Shown piece after piece: positions 5,499 to 19,791 of a stretch of DNA of 54,318 nucleotides (position 1 is its first letter; every line of letters starts with the position of its first letter). The DNA is taken from positions 110,142 to 164,459 of the forward strand of contig CASEYP010000002.1 of assembly GCA_949292185.1 (NCBI GenBank), written 5' to 3'. The stretch is from an uncultured bacterium (GTDB taxonomy: Bacteria > Cyanobacteriota > Vampirovibrionia > Gastranaerophilales > Gastranaerophilaceae). The notes under the pieces were generated by a model, which worked only from the letters and a program-made list of their open reading frames with translations, did no database searches and was not told the DNA's origin. The position numbers and the translations under genes are program-made.

Positions 5499-6551
5499 AT
5501 GGGTTTAGCAGCATCTCAAGCAAGATGGATATCACTTGCAGCAAGAAAATCAAATGTAGAATATGAAGGTCAACAGATAAACCAAGCAAGAACAGCACTG
5601 GCAAACCAAAGCTCTGAATTATGGAACCAATTATATTCAATGGAAGTTCCAACAGCCCCTAGCACAAGTGACTTTACAACAGTGCAATACACATTTGAAG
5701 ATGGTGATCAAACTCAAACTATTTCAAACATTCAAAGTGCAGACTACACAGATGAAGACGGTATTAATTATAATTCATATATTACCTACACTTCAAAAGT
5801 TTCTGAATATACAGGTATAAGAAATACAAATTCAAATCCTCAAGTTCAATACGTAGCACCAACAGAAGGTGATGGATACTATATGGTTGGTACTAAAAAG
5901 TTAACCGCATTAAGTTCAGTAGATAGAACAGATACAAGCAAAGACAGTTCTTGGGGAACTTATAGTGCAGCTTTGGATCAAATATCACAAGATTGGCCAT
6001 CAACACAAATTGCACAAGATTGGCTAAATTACAAAAATAACGGTGATACCACAGCTTTAGATAATATATACTTATGGACAGATAATAACAATGAAGTGAA
6101 CTTTGTATCAAAAACAGCAAACACTAATGATTGTTTAGATGCATGTATACAAGATAGAACCCTATCCCTACATTCATACTATGCGGATTATCAAACAACA
6201 AATAAAGAATTGTCTAAATACGGTGTTATTGAATACGATAGCAACGGCAGAGCTACATCATTACAATTAGAAGGCTCAAGCGTAGTGTATTCACTTGAAA
6301 CAGCATCTGTTACAGATGAAAATGCCTATAATGATGCAATGAATCAATACAACTATGAACAACAATTATACGAAAAACAAGTTCAAGATATAAACGCAAA
6401 AACAGAACAAATTCAAACTGAAGATAGAACATTAGAGTTAAGACTAAAAGCCCTTGATACTGAACAAAATGCTCTACAAACAGAAATGGATTCAGTTCAC
6501 AAGATTATATCTAAAAACATCGAAAGTACATTCAAAACATTTGAAAGCTAG
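5499..6551 (+). CDS. Unknown protein with flagellar-axial-like coiled-coil ends, 350 aa
   Basis: No named family is recognised. The first ~45 residues are an amphipathic helical segment (MGLAASQARWISLAARKSNV, then EGQQINQARTALANQSSELW). The middle (~55-270) is variable, beta-rich and Thr/Asn/Tyr-rich. The last ~75 residues are a coiled coil ending NIESTFKTFES. Helical ends around a variable middle is the layout of flagellar rod, hook and filament proteins. There is no Sec signal peptide. It has a strong AGAAGGAGATAG ribosome site, and the next gene starts 30 bases later. I infer, without proof, a structural or exported protein of a flagellar-type system like the one encoded at 13.9-19.8 kb. 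Confidence 0.7.
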   Translation: MGLAASQARWISLAARKSNVEYEGQQINQARTALANQSSELWNQLYSMEVPTAPSTSDFTTVQYTFEDGDQTQTISNIQSADYTDEDGINYNSYITYTSKVSEYTGIRNTNSNPQVQYVAPTEGDGYYMVGTKKLTALSSVDRTDTSKDSSWGTYSAALDQISQDWPSTQIAQDWLNYKNNGDTTALDNIYLWTDNNNEVNFVSKTANTNDCLDACIQDRTLSLHSYYADYQTTNKELSKYGVIEYDSNGRATSLQLEGSSVVYSLETASVTDENAYNDAMNQYNYEQQLYEKQVQDINAKTEQIQTEDRTLELRLKALDTEQNALQTEMDSVHKIISKNIESTFKTFES

Positions 6552-8248: not shown

Positions 8249-8953
8249 TTATTTTAAGCTAGTTTGAACAAATAGATTTATAATATCACTCATCACAGCA
8301 GATTGTCTTTGATACTGCTGTGATTTTGCTTCTAAAAGACTAATCTGTTTACGATATTCAATAATATTATTTTGGCATTCTTGAGAATTTGCATTCAAAG
8401 AATCCTGAAACTGTTTAGCTTCTTGCAAAACACTACTCATAGAAATACCTAAAGCTTCCATTGTCTGCTTAATAATAATAGCACCTGTTTGTCTTGAAAC
8501 TCCGGTAGGAAGTTTTGCAATTAACTGTTTTAAAACAGCGATATTTGGCGGATAATTCGTATCATCTTGAGCAAATGCATCAGCTCCCAAATTTTGAGCT
8601 AAACTTTTTTGAAAAGCATTATCAACAAATGAAGGTTGAACAGCAGCTTGGAATTGCATATGAGCAGCTTGATCCTGCAATTGAGATTGAACTTTCATTT
8701 GTAATTCTGAGTGAATTGATGGCTGAACAGTTTCTTTTACAGATTGCATAAATGAATTATCTACAGAAGAATCTATAACTGAAGATTGAGAATCCACAGC
8801 TGAAGAATTAGAAATTGATGATTCTGGTTCATGTTCAACATTCTGAGAATTTTCATTAACAAAAACTTCACCGTCAGAATGCTCCATAGTCTGCATTTTT
8901 AACGCTTCAACAATTTTCTTTCCCATACCTTCATTCATATTCTCTACCGCCAT
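8249..8953 (-). CDS. Hypothetical Gln/Ser-rich protein, 234 aa
   Basis: I do not recognise the family. Residues ~1-120 are low-complexity and probably disordered, rich in Ser, Gln, Glu and Val with little Lys. Residues ~130-234 look folded: a conserved-looking helical segment (NIAVLKQLIAKLPTGVSRQT) followed by a coiled coil (KQISLLEAKSQQYQRQSAVM) and a hydrophobic end. A disordered arm before a coiled coil suggests a scaffold or assembly protein. It stands alone on the minus strand: convergent with the coiled-coil gene pair on one side, divergent from the PurH-like gene on the other. TAAGAGGAATT precedes the start. Confidence 0.65.
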   Translation of the reverse strand: MAVENMNEGMGKKIVEALKMQTMEHSDGEVFVNENSQNVEHEPESSISNSSAVDSQSSVIDSSVDNSFMQSVKETVQPSIHSELQMKVQSQLQDQAAHMQFQAAVQPSFVDNAFQKSLAQNLGADAFAQDDTNYPPNIAVLKQLIAKLPTGVSRQTGAIIIKQTMEALGISMSSVLQEAKQFQDSLNANSQECQNNIIEYRKQISLLEAKSQQYQRQSAVMSDIINLFVQTSLK

Positions 8954-13891: not shown

Positions 13892-14230
13892 ATGCAAAGT
13901 AATTTTCCACAATATGATTTAGCATCAAGAATACAACATACCAAATTTGATACAGGATTTGGCAAAATGCCAAGCGCAAGACTAGATAGAGTTGAAAAAC
14001 CTGAAACTCAGAATTTTCAACAAGTATTTACTGGGCTTGTTGAAAATTTGAACGCAGAAATGGAAGCACCCGACAATTTACTAAAAGATGTTATGTCAGG
14101 GAACCAAAACGTAGATATCCATGATGTTATGACAGCAATGTCAAAATCTGAAATCAGTATCAACGTTGCAACACAAATTGTAGGTAAAGTTATCAACGCA
14201 TACGACAGAATTTCACAAATTTCAGTATAA
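13892..14230 (+). CDS. fliE: Flagellar basal-body protein FliE
   Basis: 112 residues. The C-terminal ~75 match FliE: FQQVFTGLVENLNAEMEAPD, then a central region and MTAMSKSEISINVATQIVGKVINAYDRISQI, corresponding to the FliE end KAELSFQLMVQVRNKLVSAYQEIM. FliE joins the MS ring to the rod and is needed for opening the export apparatus. It has an AGAGAGG ribosome site and is first in the fliE-fliF cluster, the classical order. The N-terminal ~40 residues are variable. A non-motile type III system could also use such an inner-rod protein. Confidence 0.88.
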   Translation: MQSNFPQYDLASRIQHTKFDTGFGKMPSARLDRVEKPETQNFQQVFTGLVENLNAEMEAPDNLLKDVMSGNQNVDIHDVMTAMSKSEISINVATQIVGKVINAYDRISQISV

Positions 14231-14290
14231 AGATATTAACTAAGAAATAAAGCAAGAAATAATAATTAATTACAGACGACGGGAATAAAG

Positions 14291-15958
14291 ATGGATTTTA
14301 ACAAGATATTAGAAAACAAACCATTATTATACGGTATAATTGGCGGAGTAGTCTTGATTATAGCAGTTGTAGTATTAGCAATAGCTATAGCAAGCAACAA
14401 TGGAGGAGGAAAATCTTCCGAAGCAGTTGGCGGGGAACCTCTAAAAGCAAACGTGGACTTGCTTACTACAGATAATCTTGGTAAAGCCTTAGAAATCCAA
14501 GCTCTTTTAGCAAAACAAGGTATTACGGCAGAAAGATCCCTTGATGGTACAAAATCAAAATTATTTTTAAACAAAAATAATTGTTCAACACTTACAAAAA
14601 AATGTACAATAACAGACCGTGATAATGCAATTATAGCAATAGTACAAAGCGGTTTAGTAGACCAAAATGTAGGATTAGAAATTTTTGATAAAGGTGATTT
14701 TACATCAACAAAAGAAGATAAAAGAATTCGTCTTGCCAGAGCAATGAATGGAGAACTTGCAAGACTTATCAAACAAATAAAACCAATTCAAAACGCTACA
14801 GTATTTATATCAATTCCGGAAAACAGTTCAATGTTTGAAGATGAAAAGCCAAGAACAGCAACTGTACAACTGGTTATGCCAATAGATGAAAAACTTGACC
14901 AGTTAAAAGTAAAAGCAATTACAAACTTAATTATTGGTAGTACAGGAATCTCAGCAGAAAACATTGCAATTACGGATACAAACGGAAATGTTTACCATAG
15001 TGTAATGAATGCAGAAGATGAAATGCTTCAAAAACTTGAAGAAAATGATAAATATATGCAACAAAAAATTTCAAAACAATTAGACAGATTAGTAGGTCCT
15101 GGAAATTATGTTGCAACAGTAAGTACATTTTTACGTCAAGCACCGGTTGAAAAATTTTCAATAGAATATGATCCAACAAAAAAAGCATCCGTATCAGAAC
15201 AATCATTCAGGGAAGGTTTAGGCGACAAAACGCAAGACCAATCCCAAGGTGTAAATGCCGTTAGTACATATTTACCAAACGGTTTACCAACATCAGGAAC
15301 AGATTCAAGTCAGTCAAGAAATTATTCAAGACAAGCTACAGAAACCCAATATGGGGTAACAAAAACTCAAACAAACGAATATATTAAACCTGGTGTTATA
15401 GAAGACATATCAATAGCAGTAACATTGGACAGAAACAATCTTCCATCTGACACAACACTGGAAGAATTAAAAGAACTAATAGCTAGAGCCGCAAGTCCAA
15501 AAGTTAGTGCAAATGATGTTTCAATAGCATTTACAAATTCAACAGATCCATATCTAACACCTGAAAAACAACAAGCTCTACCTAAAGTAGACGAAACAGG
15601 AAATCCTTGGTGGTTAGCATTATTACTATCAGGTCTTGGATTAATAATAATATTTAAAGCAATCTCAGCAAAAGTAAAACGCATCAAAGAAGAGAACGAA
15701 ATGGAAGTTGAAGCTCTAAGACAACAAACTCTTGAACAAGAACGTCAATTGAAAGACATAAATTCAAGAGCAAGTCAATTAACTCAACGTCAATCAGAAT
15801 TAGCACAAGATTTGATAAATCAACAACAAAAAGCAGCTATTCCACAATTTGATGAAAGCTTATTAACAGATTCACTAGATAGTATCTCAAGCGAAATCAC
15901 AGAAGACTCAGCAGACAAAATCAAAAGCTGGATAGAAGAAGGATCAAAGGGAAATTAA
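14291..15958 (+). CDS. fliF: Flagellar MS-ring protein FliF
   Basis: 555 residues, the usual FliF length. One N-terminal membrane helix (~13-34) precedes the periplasmic ring-building domains: LGKALEIQALLAKQGITAER, RLARAMNGELARLIKQIKPI with VFISIPE, and a second domain with QLDRLVGPGNYVATVS. A Ser/Gln/Thr-rich loop follows (~305-365), then a second membrane helix (~437-455) and a cytosolic coiled-coil tail ending IKSWIEEG. The tail resembles the FliG-binding end of FliF (RxWL/M). It forms the membrane ring of a flagellum or flagellar-type secretion system. The RBS is GACGGGAA; the next gene starts 6 bases after the stop. Confidence 0.93.
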   Translation: MDFNKILENKPLLYGIIGGVVLIIAVVVLAIAIASNNGGGKSSEAVGGEPLKANVDLLTTDNLGKALEIQALLAKQGITAERSLDGTKSKLFLNKNNCSTLTKKCTITDRDNAIIAIVQSGLVDQNVGLEIFDKGDFTSTKEDKRIRLARAMNGELARLIKQIKPIQNATVFISIPENSSMFEDEKPRTATVQLVMPIDEKLDQLKVKAITNLIIGSTGISAENIAITDTNGNVYHSVMNAEDEMLQKLEENDKYMQQKISKQLDRLVGPGNYVATVSTFLRQAPVEKFSIEYDPTKKASVSEQSFREGLGDKTQDQSQGVNAVSTYLPNGLPTSGTDSSQSRNYSRQATETQYGVTKTQTNEYIKPGVIEDISIAVTLDRNNLPSDTTLEELKELIARAASPKVSANDVSIAFTNSTDPYLTPEKQQALPKVDETGNPWWLALLLSGLGLIIIFKAISAKVKRIKEENEMEVEALRQQTLEQERQLKDINSRASQLTQRQSELAQDLINQQQKAAIPQFDESLLTDSLDSISSEITEDSADKIKSWIEEGSKGN

Positions 15959-15964
15959 AAAAAC

Positions 15965-16957
15965 ATGGCAACCAAATTTGATTATGAAAGTTTTGCACAA
16001 AATTTAGCAGCACAAGCTCAAGAACTTGTACCGCCAGAGTTTAATGATGTACAAAAGCAGTACGTAGTAAATACCCTAGGAAACTTTGCCCTTCTATCAG
16101 GGAAAGCCTTAGCTGAAGATCCAAACCTAAATTTTAATGAAGAACAAGCTGTTACTATAACCCAAATAATTGCAGAATGGTCATTTCACAAATCAGTAGA
16201 CTTAATACGATCAGGAATTCCACAACAATATTGGGATTCTGTAATGCAAAAGATTGCATATACAATATTTGAAATAGCAAAACAAACCTTTTCTCAAGGT
16301 CTACCGAATGACAAAATTATTGAACTTATAGAACACCACGTAAAAAAAGCTTACGTTGAGGCACTTGGGGAGTTGAAGAATAAAGGGATAATAGATGAAG
16401 GCTTAATGGAATATGCCGCATCCCAATCCAATATGGATAAAATGGCTCAAGAAATGCAATCCCAACAAGATCAACAAGCACAAGCAGCAGCTCAAGGTGG
16501 TGTTCCAACGACTCAACAAAATGGGAATATTGATTTTCCTAAAGTTGATTCAAAAGTATTAAAACTTGCAACAGTGGCAATGCTATTTAAGAAAATGAAC
16601 CAAGATAAAGTTCAAACTATCTTAAACAAATTTGACCCTGAAGAAGCTCAAATGGTTGTAAAATTTATGAAAGTACCAAACTTAGCAGAAAAAGTTGGTG
16701 CACAAAACGCTCTAAGATGCTTGCAAGAAATAAAAACAAACTTACCAAAAAATACAGATCTAACACCAAATAGAATTGTAACAAGATTAAGAAAATTCAC
16801 ATCAAAATACACAACAAAAGATTTAGATACAATGTTAATAAGAGAGCGCATGGGCGTAAAAAGACTGGTATTTAATGCAATGGAAGGCAAATATTATGAT
16901 AAAATGCCACCAAAAGTTGCAAGTATTGTTGCCACACACCTTGCTGATAGTGTATAA
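15965..16957 (+). CDS. Non-canonical protein in the FliG (or SctK) position
   Basis: 330 residues between fliF and fliH, where FliG is expected, and of FliG length. The canonical landmarks are absent: I find no EHPQTIA motif, and no torque-helix motif (F-x-DL...D...REV). The first ~170 residues are helical and unlike FliG-N. A Gln/Ala-rich linker follows (~165-190). Residues ~200-255 (LKLATVAMLFKKMNQDKVQT, ILNKFDPEEAQMVVKFM) do resemble a FliG-type armadillo segment. It may be a very divergent FliG, a FliG without motor function, or an analogue of SctK, which occupies the same place in some type III operons. FliF's tail keeps a FliG-binding-like end, suggesting they interact. Confidence 0.55.
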   Translation: MATKFDYESFAQNLAAQAQELVPPEFNDVQKQYVVNTLGNFALLSGKALAEDPNLNFNEEQAVTITQIIAEWSFHKSVDLIRSGIPQQYWDSVMQKIAYTIFEIAKQTFSQGLPNDKIIELIEHHVKKAYVEALGELKNKGIIDEGLMEYAASQSNMDKMAQEMQSQQDQQAQAAAQGGVPTTQQNGNIDFPKVDSKVLKLATVAMLFKKMNQDKVQTILNKFDPEEAQMVVKFMKVPNLAEKVGAQNALRCLQEIKTNLPKNTDLTPNRIVTRLRKFTSKYTTKDLDTMLIRERMGVKRLVFNAMEGKYYDKMPPKVASIVATHLADSV

Positions 16958-16969
16958 TAATGTTGTATC

Positions 16970-17680
16970 ATGATAATAAAAAAGAAACATAAAAAACCAG
17001 CTGAGGGAGAAGCGGAACAATTAGTTTCGCAAGGAGAACAAACATCAGTCGAATCCGAAGAAGAGAAAGCAAAGGATATCGACATTTTTGACTTGGATAA
17101 TATTGATTTCAAGCAGCGCCAAGAAAGACGAAGAGGTGACAGAAGAAGGGGTTTCAGAAGAATAGATGACAGAAACCTTATATCAAGAGCCAAAGAAGAA
17201 GCTGGTGCAATAAAAGAAGCCGCTGCAAAAGAAGGTTACAATAAAGGTCTAAGCGAAGCCAAAGAAGATATTGAACACATGAAAGATGCAATGCAAGAAT
17301 TTTTCAATGCAAAGCAAGAAGTTTATGATGAAATAGCTCCTGATATACTTGAAATTGGTTTTGAAATAGCAAAAAAAATCATTAAAAAAGAGATGGCGGA
17401 AGATTCTACAATCCTTCTTGATAATGTAAAAGATATCTTGAAAGGGTTATCAAAAGAAGAAACAAAAATAACCCTAAAAGTTCACCCATCACAAGTTGCA
17501 ATGTTAAAACAAGAAGTGCCGGAAGAAGCAACAAATTTAGGACTTGAAGCAAAAATAATAATAATTCCGGATGAAACAATAATGCAAGGTGGTTGTATAT
17601 TAACAACAACAAACGGCGTAATAGATGCAACAATAGAATCACAACTGGCAATAATTAGTGAGGTATTGAAAGAAATTTAA
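16970..17680 (+). CDS. fliH: Flagellar-type export stator protein FliH
   Basis: 236 residues. The N-terminal ~65 are charged and probably disordered (KQRQERRRGDRRRGFRR). A coiled coil follows (AKEEAGAIKEAAAKEGYNKG), then the conserved FliH/SctL C-terminal domain with EIGFEIAKKIIKKEM and the signature IMQGGCILTTTNGVIDATIE. FliH binds and regulates the export ATPase FliI at the base of the machine; no fliI gene is in the window. The ATG at 16970 has no obvious Shine-Dalgarno site, so coupling to the gene 12 bases upstream is likely. The stop overlaps the flhA start by one base (TAATG). Confidence 0.9.
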   Translation: MIIKKKHKKPAEGEAEQLVSQGEQTSVESEEEKAKDIDIFDLDNIDFKQRQERRRGDRRRGFRRIDDRNLISRAKEEAGAIKEAAAKEGYNKGLSEAKEDIEHMKDAMQEFFNAKQEVYDEIAPDILEIGFEIAKKIIKKEMAEDSTILLDNVKDILKGLSKEETKITLKVHPSQVAMLKQEVPEEATNLGLEAKIIIIPDETIMQGGCILTTTNGVIDATIESQLAIISEVLKEI

Positions 17681-19791
17681 TGGCAGCACCGGAAGGAAAT
17701 AACTCAAATCCAATAAGTGAAATTTTTATGGCAGTGTTTGTATTGACATTGCTTGTAATTTTGCTTGTTGAAATGCCAAATTGGGTTATCAATTGCTGTA
17801 TCTGCTTAAACATATCACTTGGAATTGTACTTTTAATGTTTGCATTATATGTACAAAAGACATTAGAATTATCATCATTTCCATCAATCATTCTTATTGG
17901 TACAATGTTCCGATTAGTACTATCAATAGCATCAACACGTTTAATTCTAGCTAAAGGGGAAGCTGGGGAAGTAATTCACGCATTTGGAACATTCGTAACT
18001 GGTGGTAACATGATTGTAGGAGGTGTAATCTTCTTAATTATCACAGTAGTACAGTTTATGGTAATTACCAAAGGTGCTGAACGTATCGCCGAAGTTTCCG
18101 CACGTTTTGCATTGGATGCTATGCCAGGTAAACAAATGACAATTGACGCGGATTTTAACGCGGGATTAATATCACCTGAAGAAGCCACAAAAAAACGTGA
18201 AGACTTATCCAGGGAATCAAACCTAATGGGTTCTATGGATGGTGCTATGAAATTCGTAAAAGGTGATACAATCGCAGGTATCATCATTGTAATAATTAAC
18301 ATTGTAGGTGGCTTATGCGTTGGTTGTTTAATGAACCAAATGCCAATTGCAGATGCTGTTTCAAAATATACAGTATTAACAATCGGTGATGGTTTGGCAT
18401 CACAAGTTCCTTCATTATTGATGTCTATTGCAGCCGGTGTATTTATGACACGTGCTTCAGCAGCCAGCCCATCATTAGGTTCTGATGTAACGTCACAAAT
18501 TACAAGTAAACCTTACGCTCTATTTTTTGCAGCAGCATTTTTACTTGTATTAGCAGTATCTGGTCATACTTGGTTCTGGCAAGGTACAGGGTTACCTCCA
18601 TTACCATTTTTTATAATGGCAGTTATCTTGTTTATTGCGGGTTTCCAAGTATTAATAAATGCAGATGTTCAATCTCAATTAGGGCAATTGGAAAATGTTC
18701 GACAAAATATGCAAGATCTTGTTAACCCTAACAGAATGTATGAACGTTTAGGTGTTGATATTTTAAGCTTACAGGTTGGTTCAAACTTGTTAGTTATCGC
18801 AGACCCTGATCAAGAAGGTCAGTTATTAGCAAAAATTGCAGCTTTGCGTCAAAGAGTTACTGATGAATTAGGCTATATTATACCGAATATAAGAATTATG
18901 GATTCCTCAGCACTTGATGCAAACGAATATATGATTTCAATTCGTGGTAACACGGTTGCTACAGGTTACGTTTACCCTGGAAAACTCATGGTAATTGCTG
19001 ACCAATGGGATTCTATGAAAAAAGAAGTACCTGAAGATGCAATTATAGGTATAGATCCTACATATCAAACACAAGCATATTGGATTACTCCGGAAGATGC
19101 AAAATCTGCAAGACTAGTTACAGCAGTTGATGCAACAGACGTTATTGTTACTCACCTTCAAGAATGTGTAAGAAAACACGTTGATGAAGTTATGACAAAA
19201 ACTGATGTTCTTAAACTTATGGAACTTGTACGTTCTCAAGACCCAACACTTGTTAACGACCTTGTTCCAACAATCATTTCAACAAGTGATTTACGTAAGA
19301 TTTTTGTAAACTTAATCAGAGAAAAAGTTTCAATAAAAGATATTATATTTGTATTTGAAAGATTATGTGACTATGCAAGATTTTCAAAAGAACCTGATAT
19401 ATTATCAGAAAGACTAAGAGCCGCATTAGGTCGACAAATCTGTTTATCAAATGTTCAGGATGACAAAGTTCTATACGCCTTAACACTTTCTCCTGAGTGG
19501 GAAAAGACACTTGATGACAGCTGTCAAAGAACAGAGTTAGGTACAATGTTTTTACTTAACCCTGTACAAGTTCAAGAACTTATTGAAACAACTGCAACGA
19601 CACTATTAAGAGCTCAACAAACTTGTGGAAGAATGCCTGTTGTATTGTGTTCACCAAGAATTCGATTACCGTTATATCAATTATTAGAAAGACACATTCC
19701 AACAATTGTTGTAATTTCATATTCTGAACTTATCACAGATATTAAAGTTGAAGCAATTGATACAATCGGTGAAGCTTACGTTAATGAATAG
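17680..19791 (+). CDS. flhA: Flagellar-type export gate protein FlhA
   Basis: 703 residues, full length. The N-terminal ~340 residues contain about eight membrane helices and the family signatures RLVLSIASTRLIL, ERIAEVSARFALDAMPGKQM and DGAMKFVKGDTIAGIIIVII. The cytosolic C-terminal domain (from ~345) forms the nonameric ring that docks substrates and chaperones and includes GIDPTYQTQAYWI. It makes the proton-driven export gate of a flagellar or type III system. It overlaps the fliH stop by one base, so the two are coupled. FlhA and SctV are homologous; FliF and FliE next to it favour the flagellar form. Confidence 0.95.
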   Translation: MAAPEGNNSNPISEIFMAVFVLTLLVILLVEMPNWVINCCICLNISLGIVLLMFALYVQKTLELSSFPSIILIGTMFRLVLSIASTRLILAKGEAGEVIHAFGTFVTGGNMIVGGVIFLIITVVQFMVITKGAERIAEVSARFALDAMPGKQMTIDADFNAGLISPEEATKKREDLSRESNLMGSMDGAMKFVKGDTIAGIIIVIINIVGGLCVGCLMNQMPIADAVSKYTVLTIGDGLASQVPSLLMSIAAGVFMTRASAASPSLGSDVTSQITSKPYALFFAAAFLLVLAVSGHTWFWQGTGLPPLPFFIMAVILFIAGFQVLINADVQSQLGQLENVRQNMQDLVNPNRMYERLGVDILSLQVGSNLLVIADPDQEGQLLAKIAALRQRVTDELGYIIPNIRIMDSSALDANEYMISIRGNTVATGYVYPGKLMVIADQWDSMKKEVPEDAIIGIDPTYQTQAYWITPEDAKSARLVTAVDATDVIVTHLQECVRKHVDEVMTKTDVLKLMELVRSQDPTLVNDLVPTIISTSDLRKIFVNLIREKVSIKDIIFVFERLCDYARFSKEPDILSERLRAALGRQICLSNVQDDKVLYALTLSPEWEKTLDDSCQRTELGTMFLLNPVQVQELIETTATTLLRAQQTCGRMPVVLCSPRIRLPLYQLLERHIPTIVVISYSELITDIKVEAIDTIGEAYVNE

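Follow-up and report, generated by a model that had tools for sequence, protein, structure and literature searches.

A second flagellum-type gene set with no recognised motor in the Gastranaerophilales, predicted to encode a type III export machine

The window analysed in the present study is a 54,318-nucleotide stretch (positions 110,142 to 164,459) of contig CASEYP010000002.1 in assembly GCA_949292185.1, from an uncultured bacterium of the order Gastranaerophilales (class Vampirovibrionia). At 13892-19791, it carries five genes in the order FliE-FliF-X-FliH-FlhA, in which X, a protein of 330 amino acids, occupies the slot of FliG (Table 1). We consider it probable that FliE, FliF, FliH, and FlhA are the core of a second flagellum-type set, with X replacing FliG, and that this set encodes a motorless type III export machine, the secretion activity of which is predicted. 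These four proteins all scored above their Pfam cut-offs, and their order and places agreed with a first-pass annotation made from the sequence alone. The tail IKSWIEEG that the annotation pointed out was present at the end of FliF, and the motif (L/I)K(S/T)WIE was kept in 6/6 FliFs of the X type. FliF of the window matched the X-type FliF of a related genome (G229) at 51% and the canonical FliF of the same genome at 26%. X had 1636 homologs, and the 120 matches listed were all unnamed or annotated as 'hypothetical protein'. Both FliF and FliH adjoined X in 71 of the 80 named loci (FliF alone in six and FliH alone in three). Based on the number of homologs and these flanks, the arrangement is not due to chance.

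Table 1. Genes of the five-gene cluster and of the module upstream of it (window coordinates)
Feature	Position	Strand	Evidence or description
FliE-like rod adaptor, 112 aa	13892..14230	+	Pfam FliE 6.1e-16; TIGR00205 1.6e-14
FliF (MS-ring, 555 aa), second type, tail IKSWIEEG	14291..15958	+	YscJ_FliF 4.3e-27; YscJ_FliF_C 5.6e-17
X, 330 aa, FliG slot	15965..16957	+	predicted N-domain 7-176, linker, C-domain 196-329 resembling FliG N-terminal half
FliH/SctL, ATPase stator, 236 aa	16970..17680	+	Pfam FliH 6.2e-26
FlhA export gate, 703 aa	17680..19791	+	Pfam FHIPEP 2.8e-214
Candidate exported protein (350 aa), one of seven paralogs	5499..6551	+	six further members in genome
Three small genes, 270, 90, and 110 aa	6582..8241	+	between paralog gene and cluster; no Pfam family above cut-off
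234-aa gene closing upstream module	8249..8953	-	no Pfam match

X did not exceed the cut-off of any Pfam family. Its sub-threshold matches of the FliG type were MgtE_N (0.0093, residues 198-242) and FliG_N (0.086, residues 203-236), and FliG_C, the C-terminal torque domain, was not matched. AlphaFold2 models had a predicted local distance difference test score (pLDDT) of 86.9 and a predicted template modelling score (pTM) of 0.53 for whole X, and 86.4 and 0.50, respectively, for the C-domain alone. The prediction divides X into two helical domains, a C-domain and a distinctive N-domain for which stand-alone paralogs are known. In a fold search with the C-domain, the top seven structural rows were FliG or flagellar-rotor entries, as assigned by entry titles and residue ranges, and the predicted fold of this domain resembles that of the N-terminal half of FliG. 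What the first-pass annotation described as a short armadillo-like stretch is, instead, a predicted domain of approximately 135 residues. In the profile comparison that it proposed, whole X did not match FliG (probability 6). The excised C-domain gave P values of 2.7e-4 against FliG_N, 3.7e-4 against FliG_C, and 7.7e-4 against FliG_M, and no similarity to FliG was found for the N-domain. A Foldseek search of the PDB with whole X returned no match under E 0.19, and the N-domain mainly matched generic helical proteins. The annotation had also compared X with SctK, the gene of which sits between SctJ and SctL in some type III systems. The gene position fits; however, a PDB sequence search with X returned one match, a pollen allergen (E 0.9), and none to SctK, which was also absent among the fold rows listed for X and its domains. 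Among these results, none linked X to SctK, and the C-domain instead looks FliG_N-like.

The identification of X as FliG itself was rejected because FliG_C was absent from X and from the source genome. The annotation was correct in that X lacks the C-terminal torque part. It had also noted the lack of the motif EHPQTIA; this is true, but not diagnostic. We rejected EHPQ as a criterion for FliG because it is absent from X and also from 35/35 canonical FliGs of the class, which were picked by a script from 38 loci; 20 aligned canonical FliGs read ENPQ at this place. Besides X, the source genome has a 225-aa paralog of the N-domain on contig C3 (L209:2822-3499, minus strand), with two apparent membrane-spanning stretches at its end. 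Similar paralogs were found in G004 and G051, and these proteins would be a membrane-anchored version of the domain. In the X cluster of G229, a 187-aa stand-alone N-domain gene (L189:8492-9055, plus strand) follows FliF and immediately precedes X, an arrangement in which the domain may act as a ring subunit in its own right.

The source genome (assembly of 1.89 Mb, 96.7% complete) encodes a complete export core (FliE, FliF, FliH, FliI, FliO, FliP, FliQ, FliR, FlhA, and FlhB) and the rod proteins FlgB, FlgC, and FliE. One operon on contig C7 contains a SpoA protein of 402 amino acids with FliO, FliP, FliQ, and FliR, and one operon on contig C6 contains two FlgF/G-like proteins, FlgB, and FlgC. 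FliI is on contig C20, and there is one FlhB. Flagellar families scored higher than injectisome families for FlhA (690 bits for TIGR01398, cut-off 772, versus 577 for SctV), FliI (558 versus 544), and FliP (223 versus 195). The search for fliM and fliN suggested by the annotation returned the SpoA protein and no second one. Its best match was FliN (1.9e-17), and SctQ aligned over residues 195-333 (7.9e-12), both below cut-off.

FliG_C was not found in the source genome by a profile search that was positive in 4 of 14 control genomes, and no normal fliG was found elsewhere in the genome. Its sole MotA_ExbB protein was TolQ-like (best family TolQ, 1.9e-29, below the cut-off of that model), and the corresponding gene adjoins two ExbD genes and a TonB gene on a contig other than that of the X cluster. 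An ordinary motA or another MotA-type stator was not found by this search. No torque generator was found in the source genome by searches that did not extend to motB or to the genes of the filament, hook, and rings.

Relatives carry two parallel gene sets. Class-wide (383 genomes), X was found in 304 genomes, at least one of which (G081) was matched by an N-domain paralog alone, and canonical FliG_C in 154, with 153 of these matches above cut-off. Among the 310 genomes of the order, X and FliG co-occurred in 129 (including G366, with a FliG match at E 8.4e-4), 175 had X only, four FliG only, and two neither. In the 73 genomes of the class outside the order, X was found in 0/73 and FliG in 21/73. 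Co-occurrence was counted from genome lists copied by hand from the results of the X, FliG, cargo-family, and FlhB searches. Two or more FlhB matches were present in 124 of the 129 genomes with both sets, and one match in 159 of the 175 X-only genomes; FlhB doubles where both sets exist. Some X-bearing records are titled Muribaculaceae (L089), Fusobacterium sp. CAG:439 (L121), Ruminococcus (L149), and Heliobacteriaceae (L158), and are probably mislabelled Gastranaerophilales. No X was found by phmmer in the regions around the FlhB genes of other orders. Genomes of other orders that lacked matches to FliG, X, and the cargo family (G005, G006, G011, G012, G017, G018, and others; families f10 and f11) mostly had one FlhB, and FliG-bearing genomes of families f8, f9, f13, and f14 mostly had two. 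Other orders of the class may thus possess an additional flagellum-type system.

The FliG and X regions were both read in six genomes (G229, G163, G168, G335, G283, and G195), using gene tables that omit open frames mostly covered by longer ones. In all but G195, the X region of which lacks FliF beside X, two separate clusters were present: a canonical cluster (FlgB-FlgC-FliE-FliF-FliG-FliH-FliI) and an X cluster (FlgC-transglycosylase-FliE-FliF-X-FliH-FlhA). The lytic transglycosylase between FlgC and FliE was found in 5/5 X clusters (SLT, 6e-25 to 3e-35). Two FlgF/G-like genes and FlgB precede the X cluster in all five genomes except G163, and FliI follows it in all except G168. The FliI that follows it in G335 is broken into two reading frames in the assembly (L197:5100-6398, minus strand). 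Additional genes in this cluster of G335 are FliJ, a hook/rod-like gene, and a FliK-like gene that scored below cut-off. In the FliF tree (15 rows) and the FliI tree (13 rows), X-type rows separated from canonical rows at 100/100, and FliF of the window grouped with the FliFs of X clusters, apart from the canonical FliFs (100/100). The bootstrap of the FliF tree had not settled, and its G002 row was a long branch. The FliI tree had four X-type rows and left out FliI of G335 (two frames) and of G168 (outside the stretch). Since the trees do not include other phyla, they show two distinct sets, not the origin of the second.

All five cluster genes are under purifying selection. The median ratios of nonsynonymous to synonymous substitution rates (dN/dS) were 0.009 for FliE, 0.013 for FlhA, 0.020 for FliF, 0.028 for X, and 0.084 for FliH, based on 10-11 comparisons per gene (a similarity filter left 12 pairs from the 80 loci, and synonymous rates, dS, of 0.05-2 were kept); there is dependence among the pairs, L149 and L150 being identical in the compared genes, and they were taken irrespective of the FliG status of those genomes. 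Among the X matches listed, an internal stop codon was present in one only. There is strong support for a distinct flagellum-type set that is under selection and has no recognised motor.

A member of a seven-protein paralog family is encoded upstream of the cluster, followed by three small genes and a 234-aa gene. In many of the 80 named loci, the three small genes stand in this order next to the X cluster, and the 234-aa gene is likewise conserved in many of these. Of the 50 named loci that extend 9.5 kb or more upstream, 28 have a paralog-family member on that side of the X cluster. The seven paralogs of the source genome (350-703 aa) share a start of approximately 45 residues (MG, then ASQAR) and approximately 60 coiled-coil-like residues at the end, and their middle is variable. 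This arrangement of conserved ends and a variable middle recalls the layout of flagellin and needle subunits. The best match in a PDB search with the family had an E of 0.25. The family was present in 310/310 genomes of the order, including the six without X, and, in other orders, in 14 of the 21 genomes with FliG and in 0 of the 52 without it. Since in other orders it was found only in FliG-bearing genomes, the family is tied to flagellum-type export, and the seven paralogs are proposed as the likely cargo of the machine. A 109-aa member in G002, a genome from outside the order, is reduced to the two ends (L253:2381-2710, minus strand) and lies 3 kb from a canonical flagellar cluster. It has 441 relatives, and the 120 matches listed include Vampirovibrio 'hypothetical' proteins. 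The Joint Genome Institute often gives its relatives the name KpsE/RkpR, or else RecN, perhaps due to the coiled-coil ends.

Based on its fold and position, X is predicted to be an adaptor. We speculate that the C-domain of X grips FliF by its (L/I)K(S/T)WIE tail in the way that FliG_N clamps an ordinary FliF. The N-domain, replacing the torque-bearing part of FliG, may hold the SpoA-type C-ring protein and the FliH-FliI ATPase beneath the ring. X would then be a static adaptor, with a job equivalent to that of SctK in injectisomes. FlhA, FlhB, and FliPQR may export a short rod of FliE, FlgB, FlgC, and the two FlgF/G-like proteins, for which the lytic transglycosylase encoded in the clusters of relatives would open the cell wall. 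The machine may next export the paralogous family, the conserved ends and variable middles of which are laid out as in flagellin or needle subunits.

The X-type set shares FliE, FliF, FliH, FliI, FlhA, FlhB, FliOPQR, FlgB, FlgC, FlgF/G-like proteins, the gene order around FliF, and the predicted fold of the X C-domain with the flagellar basal body and its FliG/FliM/FliN C-ring. It differs in lacking FliG_C and MotA, in the N-domain of X, and in having one SpoA protein found rather than two (FliM and FliN). According to the available portion of PMC3459982, the Myxococcales-type non-flagellar type III secretion system lacks FlgBCDEK, FliEG, FlgH, MotAB, and a secretin, and was initially taken as a relic. 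The X system would similarly be an export apparatus that derives from a flagellum, has neither FliG nor MotA, and was at first read as a remnant; in contrast to that system as described there, it keeps FliE, FlgB, FlgC, and FlgF/G-like proteins, fills the FliG slot with a protein of its own, and has FlhA, FliI, and FliP that score as flagellar. Partial flagellar sets were previously reported in Melainabacteria. In the available portions of Di Rienzi 2013 (PMC3787301) and Soo 2014 (PMC4040986), these sets are read as ongoing reduction or non-functional flagella, as is also the case in that of PMC5877343, in which a termite species is deemed likely motile. Di Rienzi 2013 lists flgG (two), flgC, fliF, fliH, flhA (two), fliI, flgE, fliP, fliQ, fliR, and flhB as common to the four genomes studied there; in one of these, most parts of the filament side are missing. 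The partial sets of these two reports are probably the same genes as the X-type set; however, they were published as reduction, whereas we found a separate set coexisting with complete FliG clusters. A flagellum is described for the Vampirovibrio chlorellavorus genome in PMC4451040, in which the fliI genes of Melainabacteria form one cluster in a tree; the term 'type III' does not occur in the available portion of that paper. Among titles and abstract openings, we found no report of a second flagellum-type set in this group.

The published reading amounts to a decaying flagellum, the remnants of an ordinary set after the loss of motility. The lack of FliG_C and MotA and the dispersal of the set over at least four contigs (C2, C6, C7, and C20) are consistent with this. 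However, decay does not fit separate sets that coexist in relatives and form distinct tree groups, the doubling of FlhB, or the purifying selection on all five genes; X was also found in 304 of the 310 genomes of the order, with a single internal stop codon among the matches listed. We regard decay as very improbable. An injectisome-like system in which X is a SctK homolog and effectors are delivered into other cells would explain the position of X, a non-FliG protein between the ring protein (FliF/SctJ) and the ATPase stator (FliH/SctL), and the partial alignment of the SpoA protein with SctQ. On the searches made, which did not cover secretins, it is nevertheless quite improbable: the export proteins score as flagellar, no SctK sequence match was found for X, and the rod proteins FliE, FlgB, and FlgC, which are flagellum-specific markers in the available portion of PMC3459982, are kept.

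The first-pass annotation left two alternatives, a flagellum with an altered rotor and a non-motile secretion machine. A working flagellum in which X performs the work of FliG with an unrecognised stator is suggested by the rod proteins, the FliJ, FliK-like, and hook/rod-like genes in the X cluster of G335, and the TolQ-ExbD set of the source genome. We consider it unlikely because genomes hold a normal FliG cluster and an X cluster together; moreover, FliG_C is absent from the source genome, the N-domain of X is not similar to FliG, and the TolQ-ExbD genes sit with a TonB gene on another contig. In this genome, we found neither a FliG C-terminal match in X nor a normal fliG with motAB (motB being outside the search). 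Since FliG_C and MotA are lacking and the export core is complete with rod proteins, the non-motile secretion machine is favoured. Several observations limit this preference. The available portion of PMC3787301 reports flgE and flagellin genes in related genomes, which speaks for the altered rotor, a second SpoA domain is weakly indicated in the SpoA protein (one stretch at E 0.01 and two at 0.5), and the candidate cargo family is not tied to X in particular because it also occurs in the six genomes of the order without X.

We tentatively propose, with slightly less than an even chance of being correct, that the motorless export machine is an ancient third flagellum-derived type III machine that is independent of injectisomes. 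It would be rod-bearing, with a hybrid FliG_N-type adaptor, near-universal in this gut order, where it outlives the true flagellum, and would build surface fibres or secrete a large flagellin-like family. In gut Melainabacteria, partial flagellar genes have so far counted as a sign that motility was lost. If they instead represent a separate, selected export machine, hundreds of gut species would possess an unrecognised secretion route, and the injectisome would be joined by a further natural case of the conversion of a flagellum into a secretion device. The layout of this system, in which the rod is kept, the motor is removed, and a part resembling the FliF-binding part of FliG is kept, is directly relevant to the course of such conversions.
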